This document shows, one piece after another, positions 31,405 to 50,251 of a stretch of 64,000 bases of DNA (positions are counted from its first letter, which is position 1; every line of letters begins with the position of its first letter). Origin of the DNA: Marinobacterium halophilum. Lineage in GTDB: Bacteria > Pseudomonadota > Gammaproteobacteria > Pseudomonadales > Balneatricaceae. The translations under genes and the position numbers were made by a program. Where the stretch lies: the NCBI RefSeq assembly GCF_003014615.1, contig NZ_PYGI01000015.1, forward strand, positions 1-64,000, in the 5' to 3' direction. Under the pieces are notes generated by a model. It was given only the letters and a program-made list of their open reading frames with translations. It did not search any database and was not told where the DNA came from.

Positions 31405-31547
31405 GCTATCGACCTCACTTCCTGCCCGGGCCACGGACATCGGTTCTATACCGATCATCGGCTGTTGTGCCCCATGCATCCAGCCACAACGATGGAAAGA
31501 TATGATCCCGAAAGCGGTTTTACCTTTATCCAGAACCTGGCCTCTGT

Positions 31548-32609: not shown

Positions 32610-32620
32610 AACGGCTCTCC

Positions 32621-32983: not shown

Positions 32984-33062
32984 TATTATTATCCTCAGCT
33001 TGTTCTTGATTCTCAGGCCAGCCTGAGAAGCGGCTGCTAACGCAGCGCTTCTCACGGATTGA

Positions 33063-34565
33063 TCAGGCGACGCCCTTCCACTTCTTCCAACGTTCTTCGT
33101 CCGGCGAACCTTTCATGTCCATGTTGTCTACACCGACATTCATCTGGTAGTAGTCGCGCAGCACATCTTCCACATCCGGACCACCACAATTGCCCTGGAA
33201 AATCTGGTGTACCGGCAGCCAGGATTGAACGTATTTCTCCGGCTCATCTTCAAAAATGTCGTGGCAGCCATCAGAGCAGAAATGATAACGATCGCCCTTA
33301 TAGATTGAGTCGCGGTAGCTGATCTGGGTCGGATCATCCATTTCGGTAAACAGCATTGGAATCTGGCAGATGGTGCACAACTGCGGCAGCGCTTTGGTAT
33401 AGAAACGCTCGCCTTTGGCTTCCATCTCTTTGGCCAGCTCCCAACGCGGACGGTAATATTTATCGAAGGTGTCTGGGTACTTCTCGCTTAACCAATCCAA
33501 CTCTTCGTCACTCGGAATCCAGGTATGGAAACCAGCCGCATGACCGTGGGTATAGAACGTCCACCACGCCTGATGGGAAACGTGCTCTTTTTCCTTTTCA
33601 ATAGTCTCAGCATACTTAGGCATGCGGATACCGTAACGGGCCAGATCCTTGAACAGTGCACCACCAGCCTCTTCGAAATAAACCTCCCAGGCCTCCTTCC
33701 AGCTCATCACCTTGTTAGGCAGCATGTAGTCCATCATCATCGATACGATGGTGAGCAGACGGGTACCACGCCAGAACCACTTGTCGATCCACTTCTGCAC
33801 GATCGGCACGTTGTCCTCGTGCTGCTCCAACAGGAACTTGATTACTTCCAGACCCAGGGTCATGTGACGCGCTTCATCGGACTGCGCCGAGAAACCGAAA
33901 GTCACCGTGGCCATGTCGCCGTTATACGCAGCACCAGACATGAACGGCACGAACAGCAGGTTGGTCAGTACGTACTCAAAGCTGAAGCCGATCGCCACCA
34001 TGAACTCGAACGGGCCGGCGGCACGGGCATCGTTGAAGAACGACTTGGGCACGGACAGGTACCAGACGCGGTCATGCATATGCGACCAGTCCTGCAGGCC
34101 GTCGAAGAACTTGTTGTAGTGGCTCATGGCATGAACCTGCGTCTGCACATGACGCAGCTCGTCGATCGCCTGCATCTGACAGGCGACACGGGCACCAACT
34201 CCGCCAAACTGACGACCGGTGTGGGCAAAGCCCTGGAACGCCTGGTATTCCAGCGGCGAGACGCCGGTCAGAAAGATCTTCAGGGCATTGACGTAACGCG
34301 GATCCGAGATGTTCAGCTGGCCGTTATTCTGGGCAAATGCATCAAAAATCGCGTAGAGCTTGCGCTCCTTCTCGGCCTGATATTTCCAGTAAGTATCCAT
34401 GGTCAGGCGGAAGGGGTCTTCCCACTTGGACCAGTCGGTGATCTTGATCCCCTCGAACTCTTCAAACGGAAATGCTTTGCTGCGGTCTTCGTAGGAAAAG
34501 TCCCAGTCCAGATCTCGGGTCAATAGGCGGTATTTATCTTTGATGTTGAGTTTCTTGGCTGCCAT
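33063..34565 (-). CDS. dmpN: Phenol hydroxylase oxygenase large subunit (diiron)
   Basis: 500 residues from the ATG at 34565 with GGTG upstream (GTG at 34574 also in frame). All six diiron ligands of bacterial multicomponent monooxygenases can be placed: Glu106, Glu136, His139 (DELRH), Glu197, Glu231 and His234 (DEARH). A C-terminal YHS-like segment has CTICQIPM and FCSDGCHDIFEDEPEKY, a probable zinc site. It hydroxylates phenol, and often cresols or benzene, to catechol using O2. Core of the dmpKLMNOP operon. Confidence 0.97.
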   Translation of the reverse strand: MAAKKLNIKDKYRLLTRDLDWDFSYEDRSKAFPFEEFEGIKITDWSKWEDPFRLTMDTYWKYQAEKERKLYAIFDAFAQNNGQLNISDPRYVNALKIFLTGVSPLEYQAFQGFAHTGRQFGGVGARVACQMQAIDELRHVQTQVHAMSHYNKFFDGLQDWSHMHDRVWYLSVPKSFFNDARAAGPFEFMVAIGFSFEYVLTNLLFVPFMSGAAYNGDMATVTFGFSAQSDEARHMTLGLEVIKFLLEQHEDNVPIVQKWIDKWFWRGTRLLTIVSMMMDYMLPNKVMSWKEAWEVYFEEAGGALFKDLARYGIRMPKYAETIEKEKEHVSHQAWWTFYTHGHAAGFHTWIPSDEELDWLSEKYPDTFDKYYRPRWELAKEMEAKGERFYTKALPQLCTICQIPMLFTEMDDPTQISYRDSIYKGDRYHFCSDGCHDIFEDEPEKYVQSWLPVHQIFQGNCGGPDVEDVLRDYYQMNVGVDNMDMKGSPDEERWKKWKGVA

Positions 34566-34581
34566 CGGGTTCACCTTTTTA

Positions 34582-34851
34582 TTATTCGTTCCAAGTCAGC
34601 GTCAGCTGATCGTCGTCTTCGTCCACGTTGCCACCGAGGGTGATCAGATTGACGTGCAATTCCTGCACATCCCAGTCACGGCCAATTTTTTCTTCAACGG
34701 TTTCGCGCTTGACCGCCAGAAAGCCTTCGGCCTCAATGCGGATCATGGCGGGCATATGGAGCACAGTTACATCGGGATTATCTGCCTCGATCGCTTCGAC
34801 GATGTAGCGAGATTCATCGTTATCCTGGAGCGCGATATATACTTTGGACAT
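34582..34851 (-). CDS. dmpM: Phenol hydroxylase effector (coupling) protein
   Basis: 89 residues, the usual DmpM length, with no cofactor motif. MSKVYIALQDNDESRYIVEA and WDVQELHVNLITLGGNVDEDDD are typical of MmoB/DmpM effectors. It binds the hydroxylase near the diiron site and is needed for turnover. Located between dmpL and dmpN with short gaps, each gene having its own ribosome site. Confidence 0.95.
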   Translation of the reverse strand: MSKVYIALQDNDESRYIVEAIEADNPDVTVLHMPAMIRIEAEGFLAVKRETVEEKIGRDWDVQELHVNLITLGGNVDEDDDQLTLTWNE

Positions 34852-34883
34852 GGGTCTGGTTCCTTCTTATTTTATGCGGGCGG

Positions 34884-35867
34884 TTATTTGATGCCGGCTT
34901 TGGCGACCCGCTTGTCCAGCTGCTCAAGAGCTGCGGCCAGAGCGTTTTCACCCAGCATCGCCTCGGCCAGCGGCGCCAGCGCTTCGGCTGCCTTACCACG
35001 CCATTTTTCGATCCACTGCGCCAGTAATGCCTTATTGGCATCGGACTCGGAAACGGCTGTTTTCAGGACCGCATCCATCCAGCGGATCGCATCCTTGTTC
35101 CACAGCTGCATAAACTCGATCAGCATGCCAATATCCTGGGCACCCTGTTCGCTCAACTGCTGATCAAACTGGTTGTACACCAGGTCGGTCGTCAGGGCGT
35201 CGATGACCAGGTTCTGCGCCAGCATCACTTCAAACCAGTCTTCAGTGACCAGTGTTTCCTCACACAAGGCGCGCAGCCCCTGCCAGATATCCGCCTCCAG
35301 CCACTGTTGTTTGGCTTCGACCAGTGCATCACCGGAGTTGCCGTCAAGGATCAAGCCAATACGCGACAGGTATTGCGCCATACCCAGTCGATCCATGCCG
35401 TTATACACAAGTGCCTGGGTAATGGCCGTGCCGTAACCATAGGCAGTGCCGTACATGTTGTTCAGGTTGGCGGTGTGCTCCAAATGGCGCAGCGGTACCA
35501 GGTAGCGGACCACCTGAGCACGGATTGCCTCGGGGATATGGCGTGCCAAGTCGCGCTTTTCAAAGAAACTGTAATTACTCTCGGCCACCTCCTGCATTTT
35601 GGCGCGCTGCTGCACGTAGGTGCCGTAGTAAAATTGGCGCGGGTCCTTGAACGCATACCAGTCGCTCATCACGATCGCGGTGCGGCGCGTATCGTTCAGC
35701 TCCAGCTCCGGCTGCCATAATGGACGGTAGTGAAAGTTGGTTTCCGACTGGAGGTCGTAAGTAGCCTCCTGATAGCGGGTAGCCGGCTTGTCGCCGAAAC
35801 GGCGCTCCACATTGGCGAAGGTATTACGGACCGGTTCCAGCGTGGCGGTTTTGATCTCAATGGTCAT
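34884..35867 (-). CDS. dmpL: Phenol hydroxylase oxygenase beta subunit
   Basis: 327 residues. The ferritin-like helical fold is related to DmpN but lacks the diiron ligands; characteristic stretches are NFHYRPLWQPELELNDTRRT, MSDWYAFKDPRQFYYGTYV and LRHLEHTANLNNMYG. Forms the dimeric (LNO)2 hydroxylase and supports the active-site subunit. Second gene of the operon, 27 bases after dmpK. Confidence 0.95.
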   Translation of the reverse strand: MTIEIKTATLEPVRNTFANVERRFGDKPATRYQEATYDLQSETNFHYRPLWQPELELNDTRRTAIVMSDWYAFKDPRQFYYGTYVQQRAKMQEVAESNYSFFEKRDLARHIPEAIRAQVVRYLVPLRHLEHTANLNNMYGTAYGYGTAITQALVYNGMDRLGMAQYLSRIGLILDGNSGDALVEAKQQWLEADIWQGLRALCEETLVTEDWFEVMLAQNLVIDALTTDLVYNQFDQQLSEQGAQDIGMLIEFMQLWNKDAIRWMDAVLKTAVSESDANKALLAQWIEKWRGKAAEALAPLAEAMLGENALAAALEQLDKRVAKAGIK

Positions 35868-35894
35868 GGAACTCTTCCCAGGCTGCAGTTGTTG

Positions 35895-36209
35895 TTATTC
35901 GGAAGCTCGGTTGTGGTTGTGCGACATCAGCGTTTCTTCACCGTAACGCCACTTTTCCATCTCGGCATCGACGTCACGGATCTGTGCTTCTGTCATGCGC
36001 ACAACATTGTTGGTAATGCAAAAGGCTTCAAACGCCTCTTGAGGCATCACCAATTCGACAAACAGGGAGGGGTCGTCAATGGCAAAATCAAACTCGACAA
36101 AGCGAGCATCCGGTTCGCTGCGAACCCGAATGTATTTGGTCAAACGATCAAAGGGCTGCCGCTTGGGCTGACCATTATCATCGCAGGTGTGCAGTGTGAG
36201 TTTTGTCAT
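35895..36209 (-). CDS. dmpK: Phenol hydroxylase assembly protein
   Basis: 104 residues from the ATG at 36209 with AGGA upstream; a longer frame to 36272 crosses the sigma-54 promoter. Sequence RFVEFDFAIDDPSLFVELVMPQEAFEAFC resembles DmpK/PhK proteins, which help load iron into the hydroxylase and are not part of the mature catalyst. First gene of the phenol operon, transcribed from the -24/-12 promoter at 36252-36269. Confidence 0.92.
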   Translation of the reverse strand: MTKLTLHTCDDNGQPKRQPFDRLTKYIRVRSEPDARFVEFDFAIDDPSLFVELVMPQEAFEAFCITNNVVRMTEAQIRDVDAEMEKWRYGEETLMSHNHNRASE

Positions 36210-36251
36210 TGTTATCCTCTGCTCATCAACGGATCGGTTCACTGAGTAGAA

Positions 36252-36269
36252 AAGCAACCGCCATGCCAA
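36252..36269 (-). promoter_or_regulatory. Sigma-54 (-24/-12) promoter of the phenol hydroxylase operon
   Basis: Minus strand TTGGCATGGCGGTTGCTTT reads TGGCAT-N5-TTGCT, with the invariant GG (36267-36266) and GC (36255-36254) exactly ten bases apart. The expected transcript start is near 36242, about 33 bases before the dmpK ATG. Same organisation as the Pseudomonas Po promoter. Confidence 0.9.
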
Positions 36270-36309
36270 CATGGATACATTCCGAATCAGCCAGCAACAA
36301 AAACACTCT

Positions 36310-36322: not shown

Positions 36323-36402
36323 TATTTAACTTAAAAAACAGAAAACGGCTGAAATATGCTGTTTCAGCCTCTCCTTCTTGAAAATACCCACCCGTGATGG
36401 CC

Positions 36403-36449
36403 TAACCAAATGATGAAAAAATGGCAGGATTCATCGATCAAATGATCGA
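36403..36449. promoter_or_regulatory. Paired DmpR/XylR-type upstream activating sites
   Basis: Site A, TCGATCAAATGATCGA (36434-36449), is a palindrome with perfect 7-bp arms close to the known TTGATCAATTGATCAA. Site B, CTAACCAAATGATGAA (36403-36418), is a degenerate copy. They are 31 bp apart, three helix turns, as in Po and Pu, and about 170-200 bp upstream of the predicted start. Confidence 0.8.
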
Positions 36450-36602: not shown

Positions 36603-38318
36603 ATGGCTAACACGCAATCACCCGAGTTTCCGGGCATCAATGATCTGTTGTCACAGATACGCTTCGAGAGCGACCAGGGAAAGGTCTGGCTCAACGAACA
36701 ACGCATGCTGCTGATCCATTCAAGTGTGATGGGACTGCTGCGCAAGGAGTTGATCGAGACACTGGGGGTAGAGCGCGCAAAAGGTTTTCTGATGCGCTTC
36801 GGCTACCACTCCGGATGGAAGGACGCTGAGCTGGTCGCCAAGATCCGACCCGACATGTCGAAAGAAGATGCATTCTTTGTCGGGCCTCAGCTGCACTGCA
36901 TCAAAGGGATGGTTAACGTCAAACCCGTTTCTCTGGATTTAGACATGGATAGCGGCCATTTCAATGCATCTTTTGACTGGTTCGACTCATATGAAGCCGA
37001 TGTGCACCTGCACGATTTTGGTCCTGCAGACGAACCGATTTGCTGGACGCTGATCGGTTATGCCAGTGGTTACACCACCTATTTCATGGGTCGCACCACC
37101 ATCTTCAAGGAGATTGAATGTGCCGGCATGGGTCATGATCATTGCCACATCATTGGCAAGCCGGCAGACGAATGGGAGGATCAGGCTGAGCTCGAACGCT
37201 ACCTGCTACCCGACCCGATTGCGGATAAACTCTTTGCCCTGCAGAGTCAGGTCAGCGAGCTGAGGGATAACTTCCGCAGCGCGGACCAGAGTGAAGATCT
37301 GCTGTTCAATTCGGTTGGACAATCCAGCGCATTCAAGAATGTGTGCCAAATGATCCGGCGCGCCTCCACCAGCCGGGTCACCGTACTCCTTCAGGGGGAA
37401 ACCGGGGTCGGCAAGGAAGTGGTCGCCAAGGGCCTGCACCAAAGCTCGGATAGAGCCGACAAACCCTTTGTCGCCGTCAACTGTGCCTGTATTCCACCGG
37501 ACTTGATCGAAGCGGATCTGTTTGGAGTGGAGAAAGGGGCTTTCACCGGAGCTACCCAGTCACGAGAAGGGAAATTCGAGCGCGCCCATGGCGGCACCAT
37601 CTTTCTTGACGAGGTGATCGAATTGTCACCACGCGCCCAAGCCAGCTTACTGCGCGTACTGCAGGAAAGTGAAATGGAACGGGTCGGTGATACCCGTACC
37701 CGCCGCGTTGATGTGCGCGTGGTCGCAGCGGCCAACGAAGACCTTGAGCAGGCGGTAAGCGACGGCAGGTTCCGTGCTGACCTCTTTTTCAGGCTGAATG
37801 TATACCCGGTTCACATTCCGCCGCTACGCGAACGTACCGAAGATATTCCTTTGCTGGTGGGTCATTTTCTGGAGAAATATCACACGCTCTATAACAAGCG
37901 GACGCTGGGCGTATCGGACATGGCGATGCAAGCGTTGATGCGGTACAAATGGCCCGGCAATATCCGTGAGCTGGAGAACATGACTGAACGCGGCATTATC
38001 CTCACAGACAATAATCACACCATCGATCTGGAAGCCTTTTTCCCATCGCTGTCAGAGCCAACCCACCCGCTCAACAGCATTAACCGGCAGGGTGTTTTGG
38101 CACAGCAGATCGCCCAAAACAGTCCCGATGCACCACTGTCCCGCCAGGATCTATGCGAGCAACTGCTTGACGACAGTTTCAGTCTGGAGCAGATGGAAGA
38201 ACAGCTGATCCGCAGTGCCATGGCACGTGCCGATGGCAATGTCTCTCAAGCGGCCAGATTGCTCGGCATGACCCGTCCCCAGCTGGCCTATCGGCTGAAA
38301 AAGCTGGAACCCGCGTAA
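36603..38318 (+). CDS. dmpR: DmpR/XylR-family sigma-54-dependent activator of phenol catabolism
   Basis: 571 residues, typical for DmpR. N-terminal XylR_N/V4R effector domain (about 15-205; GMGHDHCHIIG near its end), short linker, AAA+ domain with Walker A GETGVGKE (about 264), GAFTGA loop for sigma-54 contact (about 311), Walker B IFLDEV, arginine finger region FRADLFFRLNVYP, and a C-terminal Fis-type helix-turn-helix NVSQAARLLGMTRPQLAYRL. Phenols bind the A domain and relieve its repression of ATPase. Divergent from dmpK. No Shine-Dalgarno is visible; TATAAA ends seven bases before the ATG, so a leaderless transcript is possible. Related activators such as XylR, TbuT, MopR and PhhR cannot be told apart with certainty. 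Confidence 0.94.
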   Translation: MANTQSPEFPGINDLLSQIRFESDQGKVWLNEQRMLLIHSSVMGLLRKELIETLGVERAKGFLMRFGYHSGWKDAELVAKIRPDMSKEDAFFVGPQLHCIKGMVNVKPVSLDLDMDSGHFNASFDWFDSYEADVHLHDFGPADEPICWTLIGYASGYTTYFMGRTTIFKEIECAGMGHDHCHIIGKPADEWEDQAELERYLLPDPIADKLFALQSQVSELRDNFRSADQSEDLLFNSVGQSSAFKNVCQMIRRASTSRVTVLLQGETGVGKEVVAKGLHQSSDRADKPFVAVNCACIPPDLIEADLFGVEKGAFTGATQSREGKFERAHGGTIFLDEVIELSPRAQASLLRVLQESEMERVGDTRTRRVDVRVVAAANEDLEQAVSDGRFRADLFFRLNVYPVHIPPLRERTEDIPLLVGHFLEKYHTLYNKRTLGVSDMAMQALMRYKWPGNIRELENMTERGIILTDNNHTIDLEAFFPSLSEPTHPLNSINRQGVLAQQIAQNSPDAPLSRQDLCEQLLDDSFSLEQMEEQLIRSAMARADGNVSQAARLLGMTRPQLAYRLKKLEPA

Positions 38319-38398: not shown

Positions 38399-39715
38399 TT
38401 AGCGGCCCGAGGCACGCATGTTCTGCACGCTGAACTTGTCTACAGGGCTTAGTTCAGGATCAACAATGCCCTTGAATTGGCCGGTAGTGCAGTGCTGAGC
38501 CTGAATGTCGATCATGGTGAAGGAATCATCGATCGCCACGCCCGTGCCCTTATTGACCGGCAGGTGATGATCGGGGTGCGCTTGACCGATAGTCCAGCTC
38601 TTCCACATTTCACCCTTGCGGTCATAGGTGATGTTACGCGGAATAATGAAGGTCTGGGCATCCATATAGTGCTCGCGCTTGCTGATCGGATGATTCGGAT
38701 CAACCGGTTCTGATTCAACTACATACACCTTGCGCAGCTGCCAGGTGATCTCCGGGAAGCAGCCACCTTTACCACCGAACGCAATCACCTGATAACCGTC
38801 ATCATCCTGGTGTGTTTCGGTATCCAGTGGCATGTCATTGTGGTTGTACATCGGCATCAGCACCTGCTTGGTGCCTTTATAAGTCCACTTCATGTCGCTG
38901 ATACGACCGTTGTAACCCTCAAAATCCTCAATCATCACATCTGTGCCGAGGAAGGCATCAGTCGTTTGACCACTGGAGAGACGGCGCACGCGACGTTGAA
39001 AACCCAGATACAGATAGGCGTTGTCCACTTTGGTGTCATCTTCAAAGCGGTGAATCAGCAGCTGGGTATTCTTCACATCAAACGGTTCCAATACCTGCAC
39101 ATAGATGCCACGGAACAGCTCGGACGGGTTCGGTGTAATCGCGGGGTAAGGGTCTTGCGAAGTCCTATGGGTGAAGTTCAGGAAGTGGAAATTCATCTTG
39201 ATGGTCCGTTCCTTGTTTCCAGACTCCATATCCCGCGTAGTCCAGTAGAACGGCATGATCGCTGCAGAATCGCCCCAGTTGTAACCATATTTATAATTCC
39301 ACGCCAGTTTCTCCCCTGCCCGAGGATCATCCAGTGACGGCTCAGCGGGGAAAGGCCGACCGGCTGTAGTAGCGGAAATTTCACCATGCTCTTCACCCAA
39401 CTCTACATCGGCCGAGTACTTGCGAGTCGCCTCAACATAGCTCGGGTGCAGGGCAAAGTCGGTGGTTTCGCCCACCTTTACCTCAGTATCACCGTTCTTG
39501 ACGAACTGATACATCGCCGGGTCCAGCACGTCTTTGAACTGGTCAACGTTACTCTGGTTGATGACCATGCCCGCCTTCAAGCCCTGAAAGGACGGTGCGC
39601 CGTCAGCATAGGGAAAGAAAGATTCCTGGATGATCTCTTCAGATACATCGGCCGCATGAGCACTGGTTGCCAACGTCATGGCGATCGTGGCGGAAAGCAG
39701 TGTTTTCTTCAGCAT
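38399..39715 (-). CDS. DUF1329 family exported protein
   Basis: 438 residues. Signal peptide MLKKTLLSATIAMTLATSAHA, then a periplasmic protein with SFQGLKAGMVINQSN, LDDPRAGEKLAWNYKYGYNWG and the C-terminal VYVVESEPVDPNHPISKREHYMD region split by loops. DUF1329 proteins resemble LolB/LppX-like lipid-binding folds and are nearly always encoded with DUF1302. Last gene of a four-gene operon with an MMPL pump. A periplasmic carrier of a hydrophobic compound between pump and outer-membrane protein is a reasonable inference. Its sigma-54 promoter links it to phenol response. Confidence 0.87.
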   Translation of the reverse strand: MLKKTLLSATIAMTLATSAHAADVSEEIIQESFFPYADGAPSFQGLKAGMVINQSNVDQFKDVLDPAMYQFVKNGDTEVKVGETTDFALHPSYVEATRKYSADVELGEEHGEISATTAGRPFPAEPSLDDPRAGEKLAWNYKYGYNWGDSAAIMPFYWTTRDMESGNKERTIKMNFHFLNFTHRTSQDPYPAITPNPSELFRGIYVQVLEPFDVKNTQLLIHRFEDDTKVDNAYLYLGFQRRVRRLSSGQTTDAFLGTDVMIEDFEGYNGRISDMKWTYKGTKQVLMPMYNHNDMPLDTETHQDDDGYQVIAFGGKGGCFPEITWQLRKVYVVESEPVDPNHPISKREHYMDAQTFIIPRNITYDRKGEMWKSWTIGQAHPDHHLPVNKGTGVAIDDSFTMIDIQAQHCTTGQFKGIVDPELSPVDKFSVQNMRASGR

Positions 39716-39745: not shown

Positions 39746-41398
39746 TCAGAAGCTGTAACGAACCGTGAACTGGAGCTCATCTTCATCGTTGGCCGCGCCG
39801 ATCGGGCCATTGGTGAAACGGGCCAACGGCTCAAACTGCGGTGACGAATCGCCAAAGGCTGACGCCACACTCCAGGGGAAACGCTCTTTGCCGCCGGTCT
39901 TGAAATTGAGGCCGACGTTGAACATCCAGTGATTGTCCGGCGTCCATGACACACTTGGGGCATAGACCGTGGATTCGGCGGCAAAATCATGAGCAATGAT
40001 GACCTGTGGACTCAGGCGGTTATTCTTGTAGAAGCCTTTGAACAGCAGGGTGGCGATCCAATTGTCTTCGTCGTTGGGCATGTCCGCTTCGTGATCCAGG
40101 ATGTGCTCACCGAACAGCTGGGTGGACAGCAGGAACGCACTGCGGGTGCCCAGTTCAGGGATGATGATGTTCTTATCGAAACCGATCACGTAACGCAGCA
40201 TATCGGTTTCCTTGTGACCATTGAGGTCCCGCGGCATCTCTTCGCCCTCGGTATAGGCAAGCTCCAGGCGCCAGACCGCATCCATATCCATGGAATAGTA
40301 ATCAACGGAGCCACCCAGCAGGTTCACCCGCGGGAATTTGATGTCGAACACCCCGTCGGCAGCCGGGATTGGAGCACCCGGGGCAATCGGGCGGAAATGC
40401 AGCGATGGCAGTTGCTGGCGATAGGTCAGCGCATTCAGGGAGAAGGTTGCATCACCGTAGACACCCTCCCATTTCATACCCAGTTGGGTGTTGGCCAGGC
40501 TCCATTCAGGGTCTTCTACATCATGGATGATCGGTACAGGCTGGCTGTAGGGACCATTCGGAATCAACTGCAGATTTGCCGAGGATGAGAAGAAACAGCC
40601 CGCATCCAGAATACGGTACGGCTGGCCGCAGGTACCCAGGTTGTTGGGACGAAACTTGTCGAAATTCCACACCATGGACAGGTTGGAGTCATCAAAAACA
40701 CTGTTCGGACCCATGCGCCACTCGGCGGTTAACATCCACTGCGGGATACGGATATCTTCCAGCTCGTCATAGATATTATGGCGTGAATAATCCACCGGGT
40801 TGATCACATCAAGTACGCGAAACAGATCCGTTTTACCCCAGATCACCTGCTGCTTACCAAGACGGACTGACAATATATCGCCGTTCCCCAGCTCCTTGTC
40901 CGCACTCACATAGAGTTCACGAATGAAATCCAGTTTGTTATTGAATTCAGGGAAGCGGGCATCGTTCTCGTCATGATCCATGTACCCATCCAGATTTCCG
41001 CACAGGGTTGGATCATTTTCGCAGGGAAAGGAAACACCCGGCGTCAAAATGGCCGTCGAGGTATCCTGGCCATGCCAGTTCTCTCCCAAATAGGCGTGGC
41101 GCGCGCCCTTGCCGAACTCATCATCGTTCAGATCGTACACACCGTCATAGGTACCTCGCAGTACCCCGTTAATCTGCAACGAGCGGAAGCTGTCGGACTC
41201 GAGTTTGGTTTCAAACTCCGCCTGTGCCGTATTGCGGAATTTGGAAATACCGACACCGTCCCGGTAGTAGGTCGCGTTTTCGACGTAACCGGCCCAGGTG
41301 GTTTCGGCCGCTGCGGCAGGCAGGGCAAACCCCGTACCCAATGCCGCCGCGATGCCTAATGCGAGATGAGAGAATGTCGTTGTTATTGTTTTCGACAT
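39746..41398 (-). CDS. DUF1302 family outer-membrane protein
   Basis: 550 residues. Signal peptide to about PAAAAET, many alternating beta strands, and a C-terminal aromatic residue (LQFTVRYSF), the signature of outer-membrane beta-barrels. GNGDILSVRLGKQQVIWGKTD and DVINPVDYSRHNIYDELEDIR are family hallmarks. Possibly a channel for hydrophobic substrates. Encoded 16 bases after the RND gene and 30 before DUF1329. Confidence 0.87.
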   Translation of the reverse strand: MSKTITTTFSHLALGIAAALGTGFALPAAAAETTWAGYVENATYYRDGVGISKFRNTAQAEFETKLESDSFRSLQINGVLRGTYDGVYDLNDDEFGKGARHAYLGENWHGQDTSTAILTPGVSFPCENDPTLCGNLDGYMDHDENDARFPEFNNKLDFIRELYVSADKELGNGDILSVRLGKQQVIWGKTDLFRVLDVINPVDYSRHNIYDELEDIRIPQWMLTAEWRMGPNSVFDDSNLSMVWNFDKFRPNNLGTCGQPYRILDAGCFFSSSANLQLIPNGPYSQPVPIIHDVEDPEWSLANTQLGMKWEGVYGDATFSLNALTYRQQLPSLHFRPIAPGAPIPAADGVFDIKFPRVNLLGGSVDYYSMDMDAVWRLELAYTEGEEMPRDLNGHKETDMLRYVIGFDKNIIIPELGTRSAFLLSTQLFGEHILDHEADMPNDEDNWIATLLFKGFYKNNRLSPQVIIAHDFAAESTVYAPSVSWTPDNHWMFNVGLNFKTGGKERFPWSVASAFGDSSPQFEPLARFTNGPIGAANDEDELQFTVRYSF

Positions 41399-41414: not shown

Positions 41415-43847
41415 TTATGCCTTGGTTGTCATGACACAGAGTGCCTCTGCTTCGGAATCAGCGTGGATCACACCATCCTCGTCGGCATAGGCTTTACAGA
41501 TGAACTTGGGTTTGAATACCAGCACCCAGCTGGGCACCAGCAACATGGCGGCAGCGCCATTGAGGACCACCATTACGATCAACAACAGAGCGGCTTCTGC
41601 CTGGAAACGGAGGTCGGACAGCACCACCCACATGACAATGCCAGCAATGAGGGTAATCGCAGTGAAGCTGACCGCCAGCCCGGTTGTACGGATCGCTCGG
41701 CGTACCGCCGCATGCAGGTCGTCCAGCACCACCATTTCCGAGCGGATGCGGTCCATCATGTAAATCGAGTAATCGATGCCTATGCCAACGCCGACGGCGA
41801 TGATCGGTACCGTGTTGGAATTGATGCCCATCCCGCTCAATCCCATGTAGGCATAGGTCAACGTGGTCGCAAACAGCATCGCACCGAACATCATGGTACC
41901 GGCCATGATCGAGGCATAGAAAACGGTCACCATGGCGAAAATCAGCAGGAATACCAGCGGCAGTACCCAGAGGTTGGTCTCGAAGGCCGCTTCGTTTTGC
42001 GACGCAATCACACCGATGGTGCCACCGGCCAAGCGGATGGTCAGGCCATCCACCTTGCCCTCGTTCTCGGCGATCCACTGTTTGGCAGTATGGATAGCAC
42101 GGCGAATGGTCTCGCCCTGATGGTCCTTGTAGTAGAACACCAGGTTGGCCACCCGCTCGTCACTGTCCACAAACTCTTTCAGTGCACCCGGAATCGGGTT
42201 CGACATCATGTAGGTGAACATCAGCCCGCCTACATACATGGGGTCATCCGGGATCTGTGCCCAGCGGGGGTCGTTGTTGTGCAGCAGACGGTTAACCTGC
42301 TTGACCAGATCCGGGATGCCCTTGGCGCCGCCGACACTCGGATCAAGCAACATGTGGCGCTCCAGATCAGCAAGAGCCTTGAGCACTTCGGGTCGCTTGA
42401 TACCGCCCTTCTCGGCCGTTTCGGCAACAATGTACATCTCCTCGGAACCGGGGAAGCTGTCGTTGATCGCCTTGGACGAACGGTTGTAATCGTGATCCTG
42501 ATACAGGATCGGCGAGCCCGGTTCGGACTCACCAATTACCACATGGGAAGAGAAGTAGAAGCCACCGCATAGCAACAATGCCGCAATACCCAGCGCCTTT
42601 TTCGCCGCTTTCTCGCCGCTGATCAAGTCGGCACAGACATAACCCACATTGCGGAACAGGTTGTGCTTGATCGTCGTGCTCTTCGGCTTTGGCAACACTG
42701 ACAACAACAGCGGCACTGCGAGTAATACCGTAATGATGATACTCAGTGCCCAGATGGAGGCGTAGTGCGCCAGCTTGGTGTTGAGCGGGATGGAGCCAAT
42801 GGCGATCAGCAACAGGCCAATGGCATCGGACACAACGCCCAGGCTGCCGGGACGGAACAGGCTTTCAAAGGTCAGACGCGCGGCCTGATGATGGTCATCA
42901 AGGGTATTCAGCTCCTGATAGTAGCGTTCCACCAGCTGAATGCCGTGCGACATGGCACGCGCGGAGATCAGAAAGGGAATCACCAAACTCAACGGGTCAA
43001 GGTTGTAGCCGAACATCGAGATGATCCCGATGCCCCAGATCGAGGAGACAATCACGCCCGCCAGCGGAATGAAAACGCCGTAGGCCTTGCGAAAGTAGAA
43101 CACCAGCAGCGACAACATGATCAACGCGGTGAACAGGAAGATCTCGATGATCTGGCCCAGATACTGATACGCCCACCCCACCAACATCGGCTGACCGGTT
43201 ACATGAATCATCACGCCGTTGGCCGCCTCCTGTTCGCGCATCTGCTGGATATGCTCGTACGTTGCAGCATAATCCAGCTTGCCCTCGATCAGCTGCGCCT
43301 TCACCAGCGCCATGTGCCGGTCGGGACTGACCAGCGGCCCCAGCACACGTGGATCAGCACTGACATCCTTGCGCAACTGGTCCAGCTGCTCGACACTCAG
43401 ATCGGTATGTTCGGGGTTGTAGTAGGGTTCGGAGTTGACGTTGCCTTCAGGCGTCAGCCACACCTTGCGTGAGTTGCGATGCGTCACACTGGTGACCAGG
43501 TTGTGATCAACCCCCGGCAGGGCATCCACCGCTTGGGTAATGCGGTGAATGCGAGACAGCGCCGCGTTATCGAAGATGTCGTGCTCGGTGAATTCGACCC
43601 CGATAATGACCACATTGGCACCGCCGAACGACGCCTTGATATCGTTATGCAGCTCAATGTACGGGTGCGTCTGCGGCAACAGATCGGCAAAGTCCGAGTA
43701 CATCTTTACGCCCGGAATCTGGGAGGCGAACCAGAGCGTCGCCAGCAGGATCAACGACAGAATCGTTTTGGGATGATTGAACAACTTCTGGTCGAAGTCG
43801 TGCAACCAGTGAGTAGCCTTATGGGCACTGGCAGATCGTTTATCCAT
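41415..43847 (-). CDS. MMPL/RND-superfamily transporter
   Basis: 810 residues. Helix 1 near residues 28-47, a large periplasmic loop, helices 2-6, a second loop and helices 7-12: the duplicated half-pump layout of MMPL/HpnN-like RND proteins. SFGGANVVIIGVE, SARAMSHGIQLVERYYQE and GVGIGIDYSIYMMDRIR are typical. Length is short of tripartite AcrB-type pumps (about 1040), and no membrane-fusion gene is present. It probably moves a lipid or hydrophobic aromatic between inner membrane and periplasm, with DUF1302/DUF1329 as partners. Direction of transport unknown. Confidence 0.9.
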   Translation of the reverse strand: MDKRSASAHKATHWLHDFDQKLFNHPKTILSLILLATLWFASQIPGVKMYSDFADLLPQTHPYIELHNDIKASFGGANVVIIGVEFTEHDIFDNAALSRIHRITQAVDALPGVDHNLVTSVTHRNSRKVWLTPEGNVNSEPYYNPEHTDLSVEQLDQLRKDVSADPRVLGPLVSPDRHMALVKAQLIEGKLDYAATYEHIQQMREQEAANGVMIHVTGQPMLVGWAYQYLGQIIEIFLFTALIMLSLLVFYFRKAYGVFIPLAGVIVSSIWGIGIISMFGYNLDPLSLVIPFLISARAMSHGIQLVERYYQELNTLDDHHQAARLTFESLFRPGSLGVVSDAIGLLLIAIGSIPLNTKLAHYASIWALSIIITVLLAVPLLLSVLPKPKSTTIKHNLFRNVGYVCADLISGEKAAKKALGIAALLLCGGFYFSSHVVIGESEPGSPILYQDHDYNRSSKAINDSFPGSEEMYIVAETAEKGGIKRPEVLKALADLERHMLLDPSVGGAKGIPDLVKQVNRLLHNNDPRWAQIPDDPMYVGGLMFTYMMSNPIPGALKEFVDSDERVANLVFYYKDHQGETIRRAIHTAKQWIAENEGKVDGLTIRLAGGTIGVIASQNEAAFETNLWVLPLVFLLIFAMVTVFYASIMAGTMMFGAMLFATTLTYAYMGLSGMGINSNTVPIIAVGVGIGIDYSIYMMDRIRSEMVVLDDLHAAVRRAIRTTGLAVSFTAITLIAGIVMWVVLSDLRFQAEAALLLIVMVVLNGAAAMLLVPSWVLVFKPKFICKAYADEDGVIHADSEAEALCVMTTKA

Positions 43848-43868: not shown

Positions 43869-44888
43869 TTATTGGATGGGCAGCGACATCAAGGTACCGG
43901 CACCACCGGCGACCAGTAGCTCTCCGTTATCCAGCACAACTGCAGAACGCAGCCAGACCGGTAACGCTGGGCTCTCCAATCGTTCCCAGTACTGGCCGCT
44001 ACGGACTAACACAGTGCCGTTTTCTCCGACGGCGAATAGACCGGCGGACGTGTCGGCGAGACCGTACAGGGGAGCGGCCACCGGCGTGACCTCTGCCTGC
44101 CAGCTCACACCGCCGTCACGGGTGTGCATGATCTGGCCGTCCAGACCGACCACCCACCCGCGCTCCTCGGTGCGGAAGTGTGCTGCCTGGGGGTAGAAAT
44201 CGTTGGGTATGTACTCGAGGGGCTGCCAGGTCTGACCGCCATCGTCGGTGCGGGCAACCAGACCAAACTCACCGGTGGTATAGGCTGTTTGCGTATCCAA
44301 GAACTGGATACTGGTCAGCATCGCATCTTCATTAAGCGTGGTTTCAAACCAGTTGCGCCCCCCATCATCGCTGCTGAGCAATGTCGAAAAGCTGCCCACC
44401 GCCCAGTAGCTGCCGTCAGGCGCACAGGTTGCGCCAAGCAGATTCTCCGGGGTCGGCAGGTCAATGGATTGCCATTGCTGTCCTGCCGCATTGGCCGTCC
44501 ACAGCTGGCGCTCAAAACTCAGGGCAATCAACGAGCCATCGGGACAAACATCTACATCGATCAGATTGGGCCCATGACTCAGTGTTTGCCGTTGCCACTC
44601 TCCGGCATCACTGGCACGGGTCAACACCAGGCCATTGCTGCCAACGGCTACCTGGACCCGATCCGTGACCGCCAATGACAGAATCTGATCGGTACGACGT
44701 ACGGATGTATTACGCTCACCGTCTATCCCAGCAAGGTCGAGCGGTGCTTCACACCCAGCCATCAGGAGAGGGCAAACAATCAGGGACAACACTTTCCAGG
44801 CATGCGGTACGCGTGGCAGTGAATGTAATGCGGACAGGCTTGCAGACAACGGGTCTGCAGAGGCGAATACTTTTGGTGGTTTCATCAT
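43869..44888 (-). CDS. YCF48/BNR-repeat beta-propeller lipoprotein
   Basis: About 339 residues from tandem ATGs at 44888/44885. A long N-terminal segment leads to LLMAGC, a lipobox with Cys near residue 45. Repeated BNR/YCF48 blades contain SSDDGGRNWFET, ARTDDGGQTWQPLEY and HTRDGGVSWQAEV. Related to photosystem II stability factor HCF136/YCF48 by fold only. First gene of the operon; the same family regularly accompanies DUF1302/DUF1329/MMPL clusters. Likely a scaffold at the membrane for the transport machinery. Confidence 0.87.
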   Translation of the reverse strand: MMKPPKVFASADPLSASLSALHSLPRVPHAWKVLSLIVCPLLMAGCEAPLDLAGIDGERNTSVRRTDQILSLAVTDRVQVAVGSNGLVLTRASDAGEWQRQTLSHGPNLIDVDVCPDGSLIALSFERQLWTANAAGQQWQSIDLPTPENLLGATCAPDGSYWAVGSFSTLLSSDDGGRNWFETTLNEDAMLTSIQFLDTQTAYTTGEFGLVARTDDGGQTWQPLEYIPNDFYPQAAHFRTEERGWVVGLDGQIMHTRDGGVSWQAEVTPVAAPLYGLADTSAGLFAVGENGTVLVRSGQYWERLESPALPVWLRSAVVLDNGELLVAGGAGTLMSLPIQ

Positions 44889-44936
44889 TATTGTTCTTCT
44901 GGATGAATAGGCACAAACATCAGCTTCATATCGATA

Positions 44937-44954
44937 AAGCAACCGCTATGCCAA
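44937..44954 (-). promoter_or_regulatory. Sigma-54 promoter of the YCF48-RND-DUF1302-DUF1329 operon
   Basis: Minus strand TTGGCATAGCGGTTGCTTT differs from the dmpK promoter by a single base. GG (44952-44951) and GC (44940-44939) are ten bases apart. Predicted start near 44927, about 39 bases before the first ATG. Confidence 0.85.
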
Positions 44955-45025
44955 AACAGAAAAACAAAAAAAACAAATGAAATAAATAATATAAAACAAT
45001 ATGTTATGAAACAACCGCATCGTAA

Positions 45026-45041
45026 ACGGATACATATCCGT
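45026..45041. repeat. Perfect palindrome between sigma-54 promoter and upstream sites
   Basis: ACGGATA-CA-TATCCGT has perfect 7-bp arms. It lies between the -24/-12 element and the paired activator sites, in an otherwise AT-rich stretch. Possible operator for an additional regulator; no partner protein can be named. Confidence 0.5.
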
Positions 45042-45072
45042 GCATGTTTTCCGTCTCTCCATCAATACTACT

Positions 45073-45119
45073 TAATCAAATCATCAAAAAATGAAGGGGC
45101 ATTTTCGCAAATCATCAAA
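45073..45119. promoter_or_regulatory. Paired DmpR-type upstream sites of the RND operon
   Basis: TTAATCAAATCATCAA (45073-45088) and TTTCGCAAATCATCAA (45104-45119) share the CAAATSATSRA core with the two sites upstream of dmpK, in the same orientation and with the same 31-bp spacing. They are about 155-185 bp upstream of the predicted start. Confidence 0.65.
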
Positions 45120-45209
45120 TGCTCAATATCGATATTTTTCAATCACTGAAGGAACTCGTGTACACCTCGATCGCCAGCCCTTTACACAACGACAATACTC
45201 GGCAGACTG

Positions 45210-45336: not shown

Positions 45337-47025
45337 ATGAACATAAGACATTCCTTCTGGCGCAAGGCCGCCCTTGCTGCCACCCTGCTGACCTCTTCCG
45401 CACTTGCCTCCGCCGCCGAACGGCCCAATATCCTGCTGATCGTCGCCGATGATTTGGGTTATTCTGATATCGGTGCCTTTGGTGGTGAAATCGAGACCCC
45501 AAGCCTGGACGAGCTGGCCTCCGAGGGTATTCGCCTCACCGACTTCCATACCGCCCCGACCTGCTCACCGACCCGTTCCATGCTGCTCTCCGGCACCGAC
45601 AGCCACCAAGCCGGCCTGGGTAACATGGCCGAGCTGCTGCAGCCGGAACAGCAAGGCAAGCCAGGGTATGAGGGCTACCTGAATACATCCGTGGCAACCC
45701 TACCGGAAGTACTGCGCGACAACGGCTACAACACTTACATGGTCGGCAAATGGCACTTGGGCCGCAGCGAGGACAAGAGTCCGGCAGCGCGCGGTTTCGA
45801 CAAGTCGTTTGCCCTGATCCAGGGTGGCGCCAGCCATTTCGACGACCAGCGCGCCATCATCAGCAAGGATCCAAAAGCGATCTACCGCAACAACGGCAAG
45901 AGTGTTGATCTGCCCAAGGGTTTTTTCTCATCCGATTCATACACCGACCTGATGATGGACTACATCGACGAGGATCTGGCACAAGACAAACCCTTCTTTG
46001 CCTACGTTGCCTACACCGCACCACACTGGCCACTACAAGCACCGGACGCCTTCCTGAAAAAGTACGAGGGCAAGTACGAAGAAGGATATGAGCAGGTTCG
46101 CCAGGCACGCCTGGAGCGGATGCACGAGATGGGCATTATCGATGCTTCAGTAACGGCTCATACCCCGATGACCCAGTTACCTCGCTGGGAAGAACTGAGC
46201 GACGAGCAGCGCAAACTTGAAGCCCGCCGCATGGAAATCTACGCCGCCATGGTGGACAACATGGATCACAACATCGGCCGTCTGATTGACTGGCTTGATG
46301 AGAAGGGCGAACTGGACAATACCCTGATCATGTTCATGTCTGATAATGGTGCCGACGGCAACAGCCCTGAAGTACTCCCTGGCAATAAGGCCTGGTTTGC
46401 CAGTGACTATGACAACAGCTTTGAAAATTTGGGACGTCCCAATTCCTACGTCTGGTACGGAGCTCAGTGGGGACAGGTCAGTGCCACTCCCTTCCCGCTG
46501 TTCAAGGGTTTCGCCTCTCAGGGCGGTTTGGTAGCGCCCGCCATCATGCGCCTGCCCGGTGCAAAGCTGGCCGGTCAGATCAACCACGAGTTTATCCATG
46601 TCAAGGATGTGATGCCCACCTTACTCGAATTCGCCAGCGCCAAGGACGTGGCAACCCCCTACAACGGCCGTGAAGTGTTGCCGATCCAGGGTCGTTCCAT
46701 GCTGCCCACGCTGAAAGGGGAGAAAACAGAAGAACGCGCGGTGGGCTGGGAGCTGTTCGGCCGCTCGGCGATTCACAAGGGCGACTGGAAAATCCGTCTG
46801 CTGGAACAGCCCTATGGCAATGGCGAGTGGCAGCTGTTCAACCTGAAAAACGATCCAACTGAACGCCATAACCTGGCCCAGCAGGAACCGGAAAAACTGG
46901 CCGAACTGCTGTCCGACTGGGACGCCTACGTGCGTGACAACGGCGTGTTCCCGTCCGATCCGGAGAAGATGAAGAAGATCGGTTACAGTTTTACCACCTG
47001 TGTGTTTGATCGCTGTGTCGAGTAA
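45337..47025 (+). CDS. Exported arylsulfatase (type I, formylglycine dependent)
   Basis: 562 residues from the ATG at 45337, six bases after AAGGG. A Sec signal peptide ends near LASAAERP. The sulfatase motif CSPTR has Cys76, the residue converted to formylglycine; ADDLGYSDIGAFGG supplies calcium-binding Asp pair and GKWHLG the second signature. The sequence resembles Pseudomonas AtsA-like arylsulfatases but is exported. It should hydrolyse aryl sulfates, releasing sulfate and a phenol, which would suit the surrounding phenol genes. No formylglycine-generating enzyme gene is in the window. Convergent with the AraC gene. Confidence 0.92.
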   Translation: MNIRHSFWRKAALAATLLTSSALASAAERPNILLIVADDLGYSDIGAFGGEIETPSLDELASEGIRLTDFHTAPTCSPTRSMLLSGTDSHQAGLGNMAELLQPEQQGKPGYEGYLNTSVATLPEVLRDNGYNTYMVGKWHLGRSEDKSPAARGFDKSFALIQGGASHFDDQRAIISKDPKAIYRNNGKSVDLPKGFFSSDSYTDLMMDYIDEDLAQDKPFFAYVAYTAPHWPLQAPDAFLKKYEGKYEEGYEQVRQARLERMHEMGIIDASVTAHTPMTQLPRWEELSDEQRKLEARRMEIYAAMVDNMDHNIGRLIDWLDEKGELDNTLIMFMSDNGADGNSPEVLPGNKAWFASDYDNSFENLGRPNSYVWYGAQWGQVSATPFPLFKGFASQGGLVAPAIMRLPGAKLAGQINHEFIHVKDVMPTLLEFASAKDVATPYNGREVLPIQGRSMLPTLKGEKTEERAVGWELFGRSAIHKGDWKIRLLEQPYGNGEWQLFNLKNDPTERHNLAQQEPEKLAELLSDWDAYVRDNGVFPSDPEKMKKIGYSFTTCVFDRCVE

Positions 47026-47042: not shown

Positions 47043-47996
47043 TTAGCCCCGTGTGACCAGCGTACGCTGTCTCAAAGTCTGGGATGGCGTTTCGCCGTAA
47101 TAATCCTTGTACAGCCGGGTAAAATGACTGAGATGGTTGAAACCGCACTGATACACCACGTCACTGACACTTCCCTGCGCTTGCTGCAGGCGCTGGTGTG
47201 CAAGCTCTAGTTTCTGCTGCAGGATGTAGCGCGCCGGTGAACAGCCGATGAACTGCTGAAAACCGGTTTCCAGTGAACGACGGCTACACCCTGCGATTTT
47301 CACCAGATCGGACACATTCAGGGGGTGCTCGATATGGGCCTTCAGCCAATCTACGGCGCGACGTAAATGTAATGGGAGGATATCAATTTGGGCTGGGATG
47401 GTATCGGTCAGCTGGTCGGACAGCGTCTCAATCAACAGGTTTTCCCAATGCTGCTGCATCACCGGCTGAACGTTACCCTCATTAATCTGGTGCTGGCTGG
47501 CCACACACTGCAGCAAACTGAACAGCGAACGCGCCTGCCGGCTCGACGAGCACAGGATTCTCAGTGCTCCAGAAAGCAGGCTTTCACTCTTAAGGCCGGA
47601 CCAGGCCTGTACTGTCTCACTGTCAAAGGTAATGACGATGGCTGAGGTCCCTGCATCCCAGATCAAATCAGCTTCGGACCCGGGCATCATAATCAGTATC
47701 TCATTGGTCCCCAACGTACGGTTGATGTTGCAAACACGTATCGTACGGTTCAGCGGCAGTACCAGATGGCAAGTACTGAGCGCCCCGGAACGCACATGCA
47801 CACGCTCGCCCCAACAGGCACCAAAAACAAAGGTCTTTTGCAATGGCTGCAAGGTGAAGCGATTGATGCTGCCGCCTTGTGACGTCAGAGGCTTGACCTC
47901 CCGTTCATCGATACGCGAATTCAGGAATGTCTGGACCTCATCGAAGTCACCAGACTCAAGACAGGTGTTATATGAAAAAGGCAATGCGCTGTTCAT
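47043..47996 (-). CDS. AraC/XylS-family transcription regulator
   Basis: 317 residues from the ATG at 47996; an in-frame TTG at 48035 is less likely. The N-terminal half is the AraC_binding_2 type domain found in XylS, BenR and related regulators (SGALSTCHLVLPLNRTIRV). The C-terminal double helix-turn-helix has HPLNVSDLVKIAGCSRRSLE and VSDVVYQCGFNHLSHFTRLY. It ends next to the arylsulfatase and could regulate it, or be the BenR-like activator of the ben promoters, which carry TGCA-N6-GGNTA boxes and have no other AraC gene in the window. Which of these is true cannot be decided from sequence. Confidence 0.88.
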   Translation of the reverse strand: MNSALPFSYNTCLESGDFDEVQTFLNSRIDEREVKPLTSQGGSINRFTLQPLQKTFVFGACWGERVHVRSGALSTCHLVLPLNRTIRVCNINRTLGTNEILIMMPGSEADLIWDAGTSAIVITFDSETVQAWSGLKSESLLSGALRILCSSSRQARSLFSLLQCVASQHQINEGNVQPVMQQHWENLLIETLSDQLTDTIPAQIDILPLHLRRAVDWLKAHIEHPLNVSDLVKIAGCSRRSLETGFQQFIGCSPARYILQQKLELAHQRLQQAQGSVSDVVYQCGFNHLSHFTRLYKDYYGETPSQTLRQRTLVTRG

Positions 47997-48160
47997 GGGA
48001 ATCGGGCCGTTGTTGTTTTTGTTCTTTTTCAGCAAAAATCATACCCATATTTCGGCTATTTCCGAAACCTGCAATTTCGGTATCTTATGCTTCACAGCGA
48101 ACCCGGTTGCAGATTTCGACATGTTGCTTTCGTTAAATCTTCAATTGTGGTGGGGCAGCA

Positions 48161-50251
48161 ATGAATCATTTGATCACTTTTGTCAGTTTACTCATCCTAC
48201 AGTTATTGCAGCCAGTCGTGGCCAATGAAGCCGAACGCTGTCTCCAGTGCCATGAACAGGAAACTCGTGAGTGGCAAGCATCCCAGCATGCCCACTCCAT
48301 GCAGCCGGCCAGCACCAATACCCTGCTGGGCAATTTCGACCATGGCCACTTCGTCAGCGAAGGACTTGAGGCCGAGTTCTATCGCGAGGAAGGGCAATAC
48401 CGCGTCAACCTGATCGAGGCCGGCCAAAAGACACGCTGGACGGTCAGTTACAGCTTTGGCATTTACCCGCTGCAGCAGTATCTGATCGACATCGGCGACG
48501 GCAAGCTGCAGGCGCTGAATATTGCTTGGGACAGCCGCAGTGCTGACGCGGGCGGCCAGCGCTGGTTTCGCCTGGATGATCCCGGGCACCAGCCCCCCGG
48601 CGCCCCGCTGCACTGGCGTGGGGTCTACCAGAACTGGAATAGCATGTGCGCCGACTGCCACAGTACCGGCCTGAGCAAAGCCTATTCACCGGGCCAGGAC
48701 CGCTATGACACCCGTTTCGAGCAGATCAACGTCAGCTGCAGCGCCTGCCACGCCGACGCCAGCGTACATGCGCAGGCTGCTCAGCAAGGTCGCACCCTGC
48801 CAGCCGGGGTCGACCTGAGGGCCAGGGGAGCTTGGCTCACCGGAACCACGGAACAGAAACCGCAGCACACCGGCCCACTATCATCCTCCGCACAAGTCGA
48901 AACGTGTGGTCGCTGTCATGCGCTGCGTACCCGACTGGACCAGACCCCGAGCGGGCGCATCCATAACCAGTACCGTCTTAACCGCCTGCACAGCCCGCTT
49001 TACTTCCCCGATGGTCGGGTACGCGAGGAAGTGTTCGTGCTTGGTTCTTTCCTGCAGAGCAACATGCACCGCGCGGGTGTGGTCTGTAGCAACTGCCACA
49101 ATCCTCATAGCGCACAACCCATCGCCGAGGGGAACGCGCTGTGCGGCCAGTGCCACGCGGCGGCCAGCTTTGACCGCCGCGAACATCACCGCCACCCGCA
49201 GGATTCGACCGGTGCTCAATGCATCAGTTGCCATATGCCCGAACGGACCTATATGCAGGTAGACCCGCGCCGGGAGCACAACTTCACCACGCCCAACCCA
49301 GTCACTGCACAACGCGCTGGTAGCCCCGACCCCTGTTTGGCATGCCACGATGACCAAAGCCGTGAATGGTCGATACAGCAACTGACGCAGCTCTGGCCCG
49401 ACCATCGGGAGCGCGCCGACTGGTTCGAGATCCAGCAGGCCGACCTGCCCGCCATGGCCGCATTCATTGCCGACCCGGCCTCCGCACCGCTGTATCGCGC
49501 AAGCCTGCTGGAACAGCAGGCCCCGGCACTCGCCCAGATTGCCCCCGCGCTAATTCTGGAACAGCTGCAGTCGCCCAACCCTCTGCTACGTGAAAGCAGC
49601 TGGACAGCTGCCGCCAATCTGCCCGTATCGGCCGTGCGACCCCATGCCAATGCGGGCTTGCACGATGAGCGTCTAAGCGTGCGCCTCGCAGCGTTTGAAA
49701 CCCTGCTGCGAATACGGGCTCTGCCCACGGAAGATACAGGGGTAAGACGGGAGTATGAAGATTACCTGACGCAGCAGGCAGACCGCCCGGCCGGGCGTAC
49801 CCTGAGCGCCAGCTATGAGCTAACCACCCAACCGGCAATCGCCGAGCAGAACCTGAACATCGCCCTGCAGATGGATAACGCCTACCAGCCAGCCTATATC
49901 TTGCTGACCGAACTGCTGCGATCGCAACAGCGGTTTGACGAAGCCATTGAGCTGCTGAAGCGTGGGTTGGAAGTCATGCCGGACAACGCCAATCTGCACC
50001 ACTTGCGCGGCCTGACCCGGCTGCAGCTGCGACAAATCCCGCCTGCACTCGACGACCTGGCCCTGGCTTGGCGACAGGCGCCGGATAATGCTGATTTCGG
50101 GTATCGCTACGCCTTGGCGCTATACCACACGGGTGACCGGGAGCGGGCTCACCTCCTGATCAGCCAGTTACTGCAACAATTTCCCCAACACCCAAGCATT
50201 GCCCGTCTTCGTGTCCTGCTGAAACCGGCACCGTCCGGACGCCCCAGATAA
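48161..50251 (+). CDS. Exported octaheme cytochrome c with C-terminal TPR repeats
   Basis: 696 residues. Signal peptide ends near PVVANEAE. Eight CxxCH haem sites: CLQCH, CADCH, CSACH, CGRCH, CSNCH, CGQCH, CISCH and CLACH, within the first 400 residues. The second half has HEAT/TPR-like helices (AYILLTELLRSQQRFDEAIELLKRGLEVMP split, LRGLTRLQLRQIPPALDDLALA). Proteins of this plan are widespread but mostly uncharacterised; a periplasmic electron-transfer or redox enzyme is likely. The 164-bp gap to the divergent AraC gene contains TTTCGG-N6-CCGAAA (48050-48067). Its tie to aromatic catabolism is positional only. Confidence 0.87.
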   Translation: MNHLITFVSLLILQLLQPVVANEAERCLQCHEQETREWQASQHAHSMQPASTNTLLGNFDHGHFVSEGLEAEFYREEGQYRVNLIEAGQKTRWTVSYSFGIYPLQQYLIDIGDGKLQALNIAWDSRSADAGGQRWFRLDDPGHQPPGAPLHWRGVYQNWNSMCADCHSTGLSKAYSPGQDRYDTRFEQINVSCSACHADASVHAQAAQQGRTLPAGVDLRARGAWLTGTTEQKPQHTGPLSSSAQVETCGRCHALRTRLDQTPSGRIHNQYRLNRLHSPLYFPDGRVREEVFVLGSFLQSNMHRAGVVCSNCHNPHSAQPIAEGNALCGQCHAAASFDRREHHRHPQDSTGAQCISCHMPERTYMQVDPRREHNFTTPNPVTAQRAGSPDPCLACHDDQSREWSIQQLTQLWPDHRERADWFEIQQADLPAMAAFIADPASAPLYRASLLEQQAPALAQIAPALILEQLQSPNPLLRESSWTAAANLPVSAVRPHANAGLHDERLSVRLAAFETLLRIRALPTEDTGVRREYEDYLTQQADRPAGRTLSASYELTTQPAIAEQNLNIALQMDNAYQPAYILLTELLRSQQRFDEAIELLKRGLEVMPDNANLHHLRGLTRLQLRQIPPALDDLALAWRQAPDNADFGYRYALALYHTGDRERAHLLISQLLQQFPQHPSIARLRVLLKPAPSGRPR

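Follow-up and report, generated by a model that had tools for sequence, protein, structure and literature searches.

The stretch of DNA analysed here (the window) comprises 64,000 nucleotides of the Marinobacterium halophilum genome and raises the question of why a four-gene operon for envelope proteins should carry almost the same promoter as the phenol degradation gene dmpK, and what an operon under such control would do for the cell. The operon is referred to as the pump operon and its gene set, wherever found, as the cassette.

The pump operon and its promoter

All four genes of the pump operon lie on the minus strand and encode a YCF48/COG4447-like protein (43869-44888), an RND transporter of the MMPL family (41415-43847), a DUF1302 protein (39746-41398), and a DUF1329 protein (38399-39715). 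Domain searches identify each of them, with an NCBIfam search added for the RND transporter and structure prediction for the last two, the DUF1302 protein being a predicted outer-membrane beta-barrel (low-confidence model) and the DUF1329 protein a LolA-like periplasmic carrier by predicted fold. The YCF48 protein has LMAGC after a hydrophobic stretch, by eye a likely lipobox. Among named relatives of the RND transporter, those from Marinobacterium species match best. Around these genes extends an aromatic island, one flank of which holds phenol hydroxylase genes, a ferredoxin gene, and a catechol 2,3-dioxygenase-type gene (30095-36272, minus strand, by domain search), and the other genes with HMGL and DmpG domains, FAA hydrolases, an aldehyde dehydrogenase, BenE, and a benzoate dioxygenase large subunit. 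The dmpR gene (36603-38318, plus strand) encodes an activator of the XylR_N-V4R-AAA+-Fis type, recognised by domain search and by its GAFTGA loop motif, with CapR 6iy8 as its closest solved structure. Besides DmpR, no XylR_N protein was found in the genome, which encodes one RpoN. These domain assignments, for the four operon genes and for DmpR, agree with the preliminary description of the locus.

For the pump operon, pattern matching places a -24/-12 promoter of the sigma-54 type, TTGGCATAGCGGTTGCTTT, at 44936-44954 on the minus strand, where it is conserved before YCF48 orthologues, and for dmpK a second, TTGGCATGGCGGTTGCTTT, at 36251-36269 on the same strand. The two had been described as one base apart, and they do differ at a single base over 19 bp. 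With up to two mismatches allowed they are the sole matches in the window, none arising in 100 shuffles, and the 3.65-Mb genome has eight matches at up to three mismatches, namely these two promoters with none and six sites with three, so that no other genome site comes below three; a reversed control pattern gave six matches at the same tolerance. The -24/-12 element of the pump operon, with its GG and GC, matches TGGCAYNNNNNTTGCW without mismatch, a pattern that at one mismatch occurs at chance level (8 against 7.5). The transcript would start near 44927.

Upstream of this promoter lie two putative activating sites on the minus strand, a proximal one, TTGATGATTTGATTAA, at 45072-45087, supported by consensus, orthologues, and a held-out profile, and a distal one, TTGATGATTTGCGAAA, at 45103-45118, 31 bp from the first and supported by orthologues and the same profile. 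They are separated from the promoter by an AT-rich spacer (44955-45071) with 70% A+T against 43% for the window. A putative pair at dmpK, recognised by pattern and profile on the minus strand (36402-36449), consists of 16-mers at 36402-36417 and 36434-36449, 32 bp apart. The window has four exact copies of the core CAAATSATSRA, at 36407, 36439, 45077, and 45108, each on the plus strand; at one mismatch there are 18 occurrences against 10.3 expected, a number reached by 3 of 100 shuffles, and the 11-base core with one mismatch is by itself not very rare. The preliminary description had both promoters carrying paired sites of this core in the same orientation, exactly 31 bp apart; pairing and orientation hold, whereas the distance is true of the YCF48 operon only, dmpK having 32 bp. 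The -24 hexamer lies 118 bp from the proximal 16-mer in the pump operon and 133 bp from it in dmpK, a difference of 15 bp that is no whole number of helical turns and has to be counted against the parallel.

XylR/DmpR-type promoters are described as having two palindromic sites with centres 29-42 bp apart, 100-200 bp upstream (PMC6449761), and the pump operon pair fits that description, with sites 31 bp apart and centres at about -152 and -183 from the presumed start. A second palindrome, at 45111-45126, overlaps the distal site and, with 39 bp spacing, fits the XylR/DmpR consensus slightly better, but the orthologues support the register 45103-45118 for the distal site. IHF-like sequences are present in both promoters, the one in the pump operon spacer lying at 44994-45006 with one mismatch to the IHF consensus.

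Conservation of the enhancer and promoter

Conservation was followed in related genomes, from which all the counts below come, beginning with a family set made up of the window and 20 orthologous loci from 19 genomes (G013, G022, and G062 not among them). All four cassette genes occur together in 20 of 20 of these loci by tblastn. A site pair with 29-33 bp spacing and a score of at least 25 of 32 is found in 18 of the 21 upstream regions, against 0 of 4200 Markov shuffles, the scores resting on two 16-mer consensus variants of which one was picked after these loci were seen; a -24/-12 site with at most one mismatch stands upstream of YCF48 in 20 of 21 regions, against 2.5% of shuffles. The exceptions are L068, which has neither pair nor -24/-12 site, and L066 and L069, in which the pairs are weak (scores of 21 and 24).

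A profile that excluded the window and was built from 17 of the 20 other enhancers (L066, L068, and L069 omitted for their weak pairs) gives 36.3 bits to the pump operon site within the window, 15.3 bits to dmpK, and 7.2 bits to the next match. When applied to the whole genome, with 150 of 661 first-look candidates scored, the profile ranks the pump operon site first (36.3 bits, E 1.4e-8) and dmpK second (15.1 bits, E 0.07), a match that is weak alone and carries weight because of where the dmpK site lies. The third match in the same scoring, L082, reaches 14.8 bits, almost equal to dmpK. It was considered as a third DmpR target in this genome and judged a chance match, sitting where an ORF read as cpoB-like meets one read as queC-like.

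The distribution of the RND transporter falls within that of phenol hydroxylase. Among 96 genomes searched, 23, the present one included, have an RND orthologue (at least 71% identity, with fragments in G013 and a partial match in G022), and the large subunit of phenol hydroxylase is present in 31 (at least 65% identity, partial in G052); all 23 fall within the 31 (Fisher p 9e-16, genomes treated as independent), and eight genomes have the hydroxylase without the RND orthologue.

The preliminary description had proposed looking for this promoter beside the same genes elsewhere, and among the best 80 of 215 loci with an RND match, reduced to 78 for scoring because too little DNA precedes YCF48 in L119 and L135, the full element precedes YCF48 in 54. 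The element was defined as a -24/-12 site with at most one mismatch plus a pair scoring at least 22, placed 80-160 bp upstream, the thresholds being fixed after the family result. Twelve of the 78 loci are the same DNA as members of the family set (11 of them with the element), which leaves 43 of 66 loci beyond it. Chance likeness of the enhancer and promoter is thus ruled out by the shuffles, the held-out profile, and these wider loci. Outside YCF48 upstream regions the element occurs 44 times in 3.16 Mb of strand-bp, 34 times at dmpK and 10 times without an automatic assignment. Three of these ten (L132, L139, and L159) are, by position only, where dmpK sits in sister loci, and three that were inspected (L110:1724, L094:1459, and L113:1439) precede a gene read as catechol 2,3-dioxygenase, in L113 with a ferredoxin-like gene first; the other four are L100, L120, L124, and L161. 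Catechol 2,3-dioxygenase genes are thus likely to be a further DmpR target in some genomes. The link between element and phenol genes is strong but not universal: dmpN or dmpR at 50% identity or more is present in the DNA examined at 41 of the 54 loci with the element (13 having neither) and at 11 of the 24 without it. Five cassettes lacking the element (L091, L093, L101, L102, and L106) lie near more distant DmpR-like genes of 41-49% identity and might respond to different effectors.

Distances from the proximal site to -24 form clusters about one helical turn apart (96-100, 109-112, 117-122, 130, and 140-145), with a phasing R of 0.74 near 10.5 bp that none of 20000 random sets reaches when loci are treated as independent, although close relatives share a gap and the independent events are therefore fewer than 54. 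A first phase test had used 18 of the 21 family-set regions, those with weak pairs being omitted. Gene order is also retained, the arrangement dmpN(-) dmpR(+) cassette(+) being found in 35 of the 47 loci with dmpN among the best 80 of 215, the other 33 of the 80 having no dmpN in the DNA examined. The window is an exception, its cassette being oriented the opposite way, toward dmpR.

Plasmids provide one further instance. At E 1e-60 one of 72,556 plasmid records matched, the conjugative plasmid of Pseudomonas veronii T1, in which (L165:11344-17195) a meta-pathway dmp cluster is followed by dmpR, YCF48, and, at the end of the record, an RND match; the remaining two cassette genes would continue over the start of the record. 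The DNA between dmpR and YCF48 has a -24/-12 site that matches perfectly, together with a pair of sites scoring 26. The DmpR of this plasmid is about 94% identical to CapR 6iy8 (26 of 465 aligned residues differ). It has ELIDSFE where CapR has EWIDSFE.

Mechanism, cargo, and competing explanations

The conservation of the element across genera, the held-out profile match, the presence of a single XylR_N protein, and the presence of RpoN together support well, at the level of sequence, that DmpR and sigma-54 very probably drive the pump operon, much as the preliminary description had proposed in holding that DmpR turns it on together with phenol degradation. In the reading favoured here, to which we assign a probability of about 0.72, a DmpR enhancer and sigma-54 promoter at 44936-45118 switch a four-part envelope exporter of phenol-associated hydrophobic compounds. 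Phenol-type effectors would activate DmpR, which would bind both sites, spaced by about three turns of the helix; the AT-rich spacer, bending perhaps with the aid of IHF, would loop so that DmpR touches the sigma-54 polymerase, and transcription would begin near 44927, the switch working like Po. The products would assemble into a four-part machine with the RND protein in the inner membrane, the DUF1302 beta-barrel in the outer membrane, and the LolA-like DUF1329 carrier and the YCF48-type lipoprotein in the periplasm, and this machine most likely clears phenol-associated hydrophobic compounds from membrane and periplasm while the hydroxylase degrades them. Of the import, export, or protection considered in the preliminary description, export or tolerance is favoured mainly by the precedent of AmeABCD of Castellaniella defragrans, a four-component, experimentally supported monoterpene exporter with DUF1302, DUF1329, COG4447, and HAE3-type RND components (PMC6394551). 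The likeness is one of component families, AmeABCD and in particular AmeD being compared here by description rather than by sequence, and AmeABCD differs in lying in a monoterpene island and, in the available text, in having no regulator named.

The same DmpR switch could instead serve a cargo of the cell's own lipid, an MmpL/HpnN-like exporter and a LolA-like carrier fortifying the outer membrane against solvent stress, a reading that we hold to be rather unlikely. The predicted fold of the DUF1329 protein (mean pLDDT 77.8) resembles those of LolA-type carriers, a solved DUF1329 protein among them, and the RND protein matches HAE3, MMPL, MmpL3, and HpnN models. All of these RND matches are weak, however, and lie below cut-off, the best, HAE3, at 132 bits against 352, and the cassette itself contains no lipid-synthesis gene.

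Rather unlikely, too, is that the machine, under the same DmpR switch, imports an aromatic substrate or a hydrophobic precursor across outer membrane and periplasm for the hydroxylase. Phenol passes membranes unaided, which counts against such a role. Transport roles have been proposed for related proteins: growth on Tween 20 requires PP_0765/PP_0766 (DUF1302/DUF1329), to which a part in substrate transport was ascribed as a proposal (PMC10866462), and a cluster with DUF1329, YCF48, and MMPL proteins has been proposed for benzene transport (PMC13101534). Deletion of AmeABCD, on the other hand, makes cells less tolerant of monoterpenes and lets more Nile Red accumulate, as the loss of an exporter would (PMC6394551). 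The DUF1302 model weakly matches porins and other outer-membrane barrels, as an importer might, but is too poor (mean pLDDT 64.7) to tell import from export.

Two further explanations touch control instead of cargo. It is improbable that, the motifs being genuine, expression is decided by another regulator, either an AphS-like repressor acting at a palindrome (45124-45137) or the AraC-family protein encoded nearby. The palindrome, CAATATCGATATTT, has one mismatch to the AphS/BphS consensus (PMC6449761) and is the only window match within three mismatches, and a weaker AphS-type match at 44927-44938 (two mismatches to a shorter core) overlaps the presumed start; yet at two mismatches or fewer one of the 21 upstream regions has such a palindrome, close to what shuffling yields (1.6% per region), and none was found in the 20 orthologous ones. 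An AphS site was accordingly rejected as a general feature upstream of the cassette. The CAATATCGATATTT palindrome adjoins the distal DmpR site. Finally, the single-base difference between the two promoters might reflect a local copy of the dmpK promoter, perhaps without function, which is very improbable given that spacing and flanks differ and that orthologues in other genera retain the element before the cassette amid different surrounding DNA.

Relation to known systems

The preliminary description held DmpR-type control of this gene set to be undescribed, and here it has to be corrected: control of COG4447, COG1033, PF07044, and DUF1302 genes by AphR, a member of the XylR/DmpR group, has been predicted in Burkholderia sp. 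383, and control by AphS and/or AphT in other Betaproteobacteria (PMC6449761). The Burkholderia case has the same four families as the present one and, in the prediction, paired palindromes as targets of a XylR/DmpR-group activator, and a role against toxic aromatics was suggested there (PMC6449761). In the available text it concerns one betaproteobacterial genome, with an aminotransferase gene in the same operon (PMC6449761), whereas the present cassette is gammaproteobacterial, has four genes, and often lies beside dmpR, its promoter, spacing, and phase having been examined here. The Po-type dmp promoter of DmpR/CapR resembles the pump operon promoter in its -24/-12 site, paired upstream sites, AT-rich spacer, and regulator, and differs in serving a catabolic target instead of an envelope operon.

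Other related gene sets are known. PP_0765/PP_0766/PP_2018/PP_2019 of Pseudomonas putida comprise DUF1302, DUF1329, a periplasmic protein, and an efflux transporter with linked phenotypes, but lie in two places by their locus numbers and are tied to growth on Tween 20, with no link to phenol in the available text (PMC10866462). The nanopod cluster of ORM2a combines DUF1329 with YCF48 and MMPL proteins (PMC13101534), and the phenol hydroxylase cluster of Zoogloea oleivorans has DUF1302 and DUF1329 genes and a sigma-54 regulator (PMC7012976); the available text of neither paper mentions a DmpR promoter before them. In the open-access literature we found no description of DmpR control of the cassette in Gammaproteobacteria and no publication dealing with phenol together with DUF1302 and RND.

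A conserved gammaproteobacterial unit of DmpR and pump, present also on a conjugative dmp plasmid, therefore appears to be new. It may well be that in Gammaproteobacteria, including catabolic plasmids with near-textbook DmpR/CapR, the core DmpR regulon unites the phenol pathway with a dedicated pump in the envelope, both under phased enhancers of their own, the pump arm lying just past the end of dmpR and having escaped notice in the classical system. The pump operon would add a likely defence or transport arm to a textbook regulator that serves as a model activator and as a component of phenol biosensors. If so, phenol tolerance and phenol catabolism would belong to a single regulon, of which strains engineered with only the dmp operon may lack half, and an inducible, genetically simple setting would be at hand for finding the cargo of two domains of unknown function.

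Two neighbours of the pump operon deserve mention. An arylsulfatase-family gene (45337-47025, plus strand) is divergent from it and has no match of at least 35% identity in the 20 family loci (about 20 kb each); phenyl sulfate as its substrate would suit the island but is only a guess. Further along, a plus-strand gene (48161-50251) encodes a protein with cytochrome c7/CXXCH motifs and TPR repeats and lies beside the gene for the AraC-family regulator (47043-48035).
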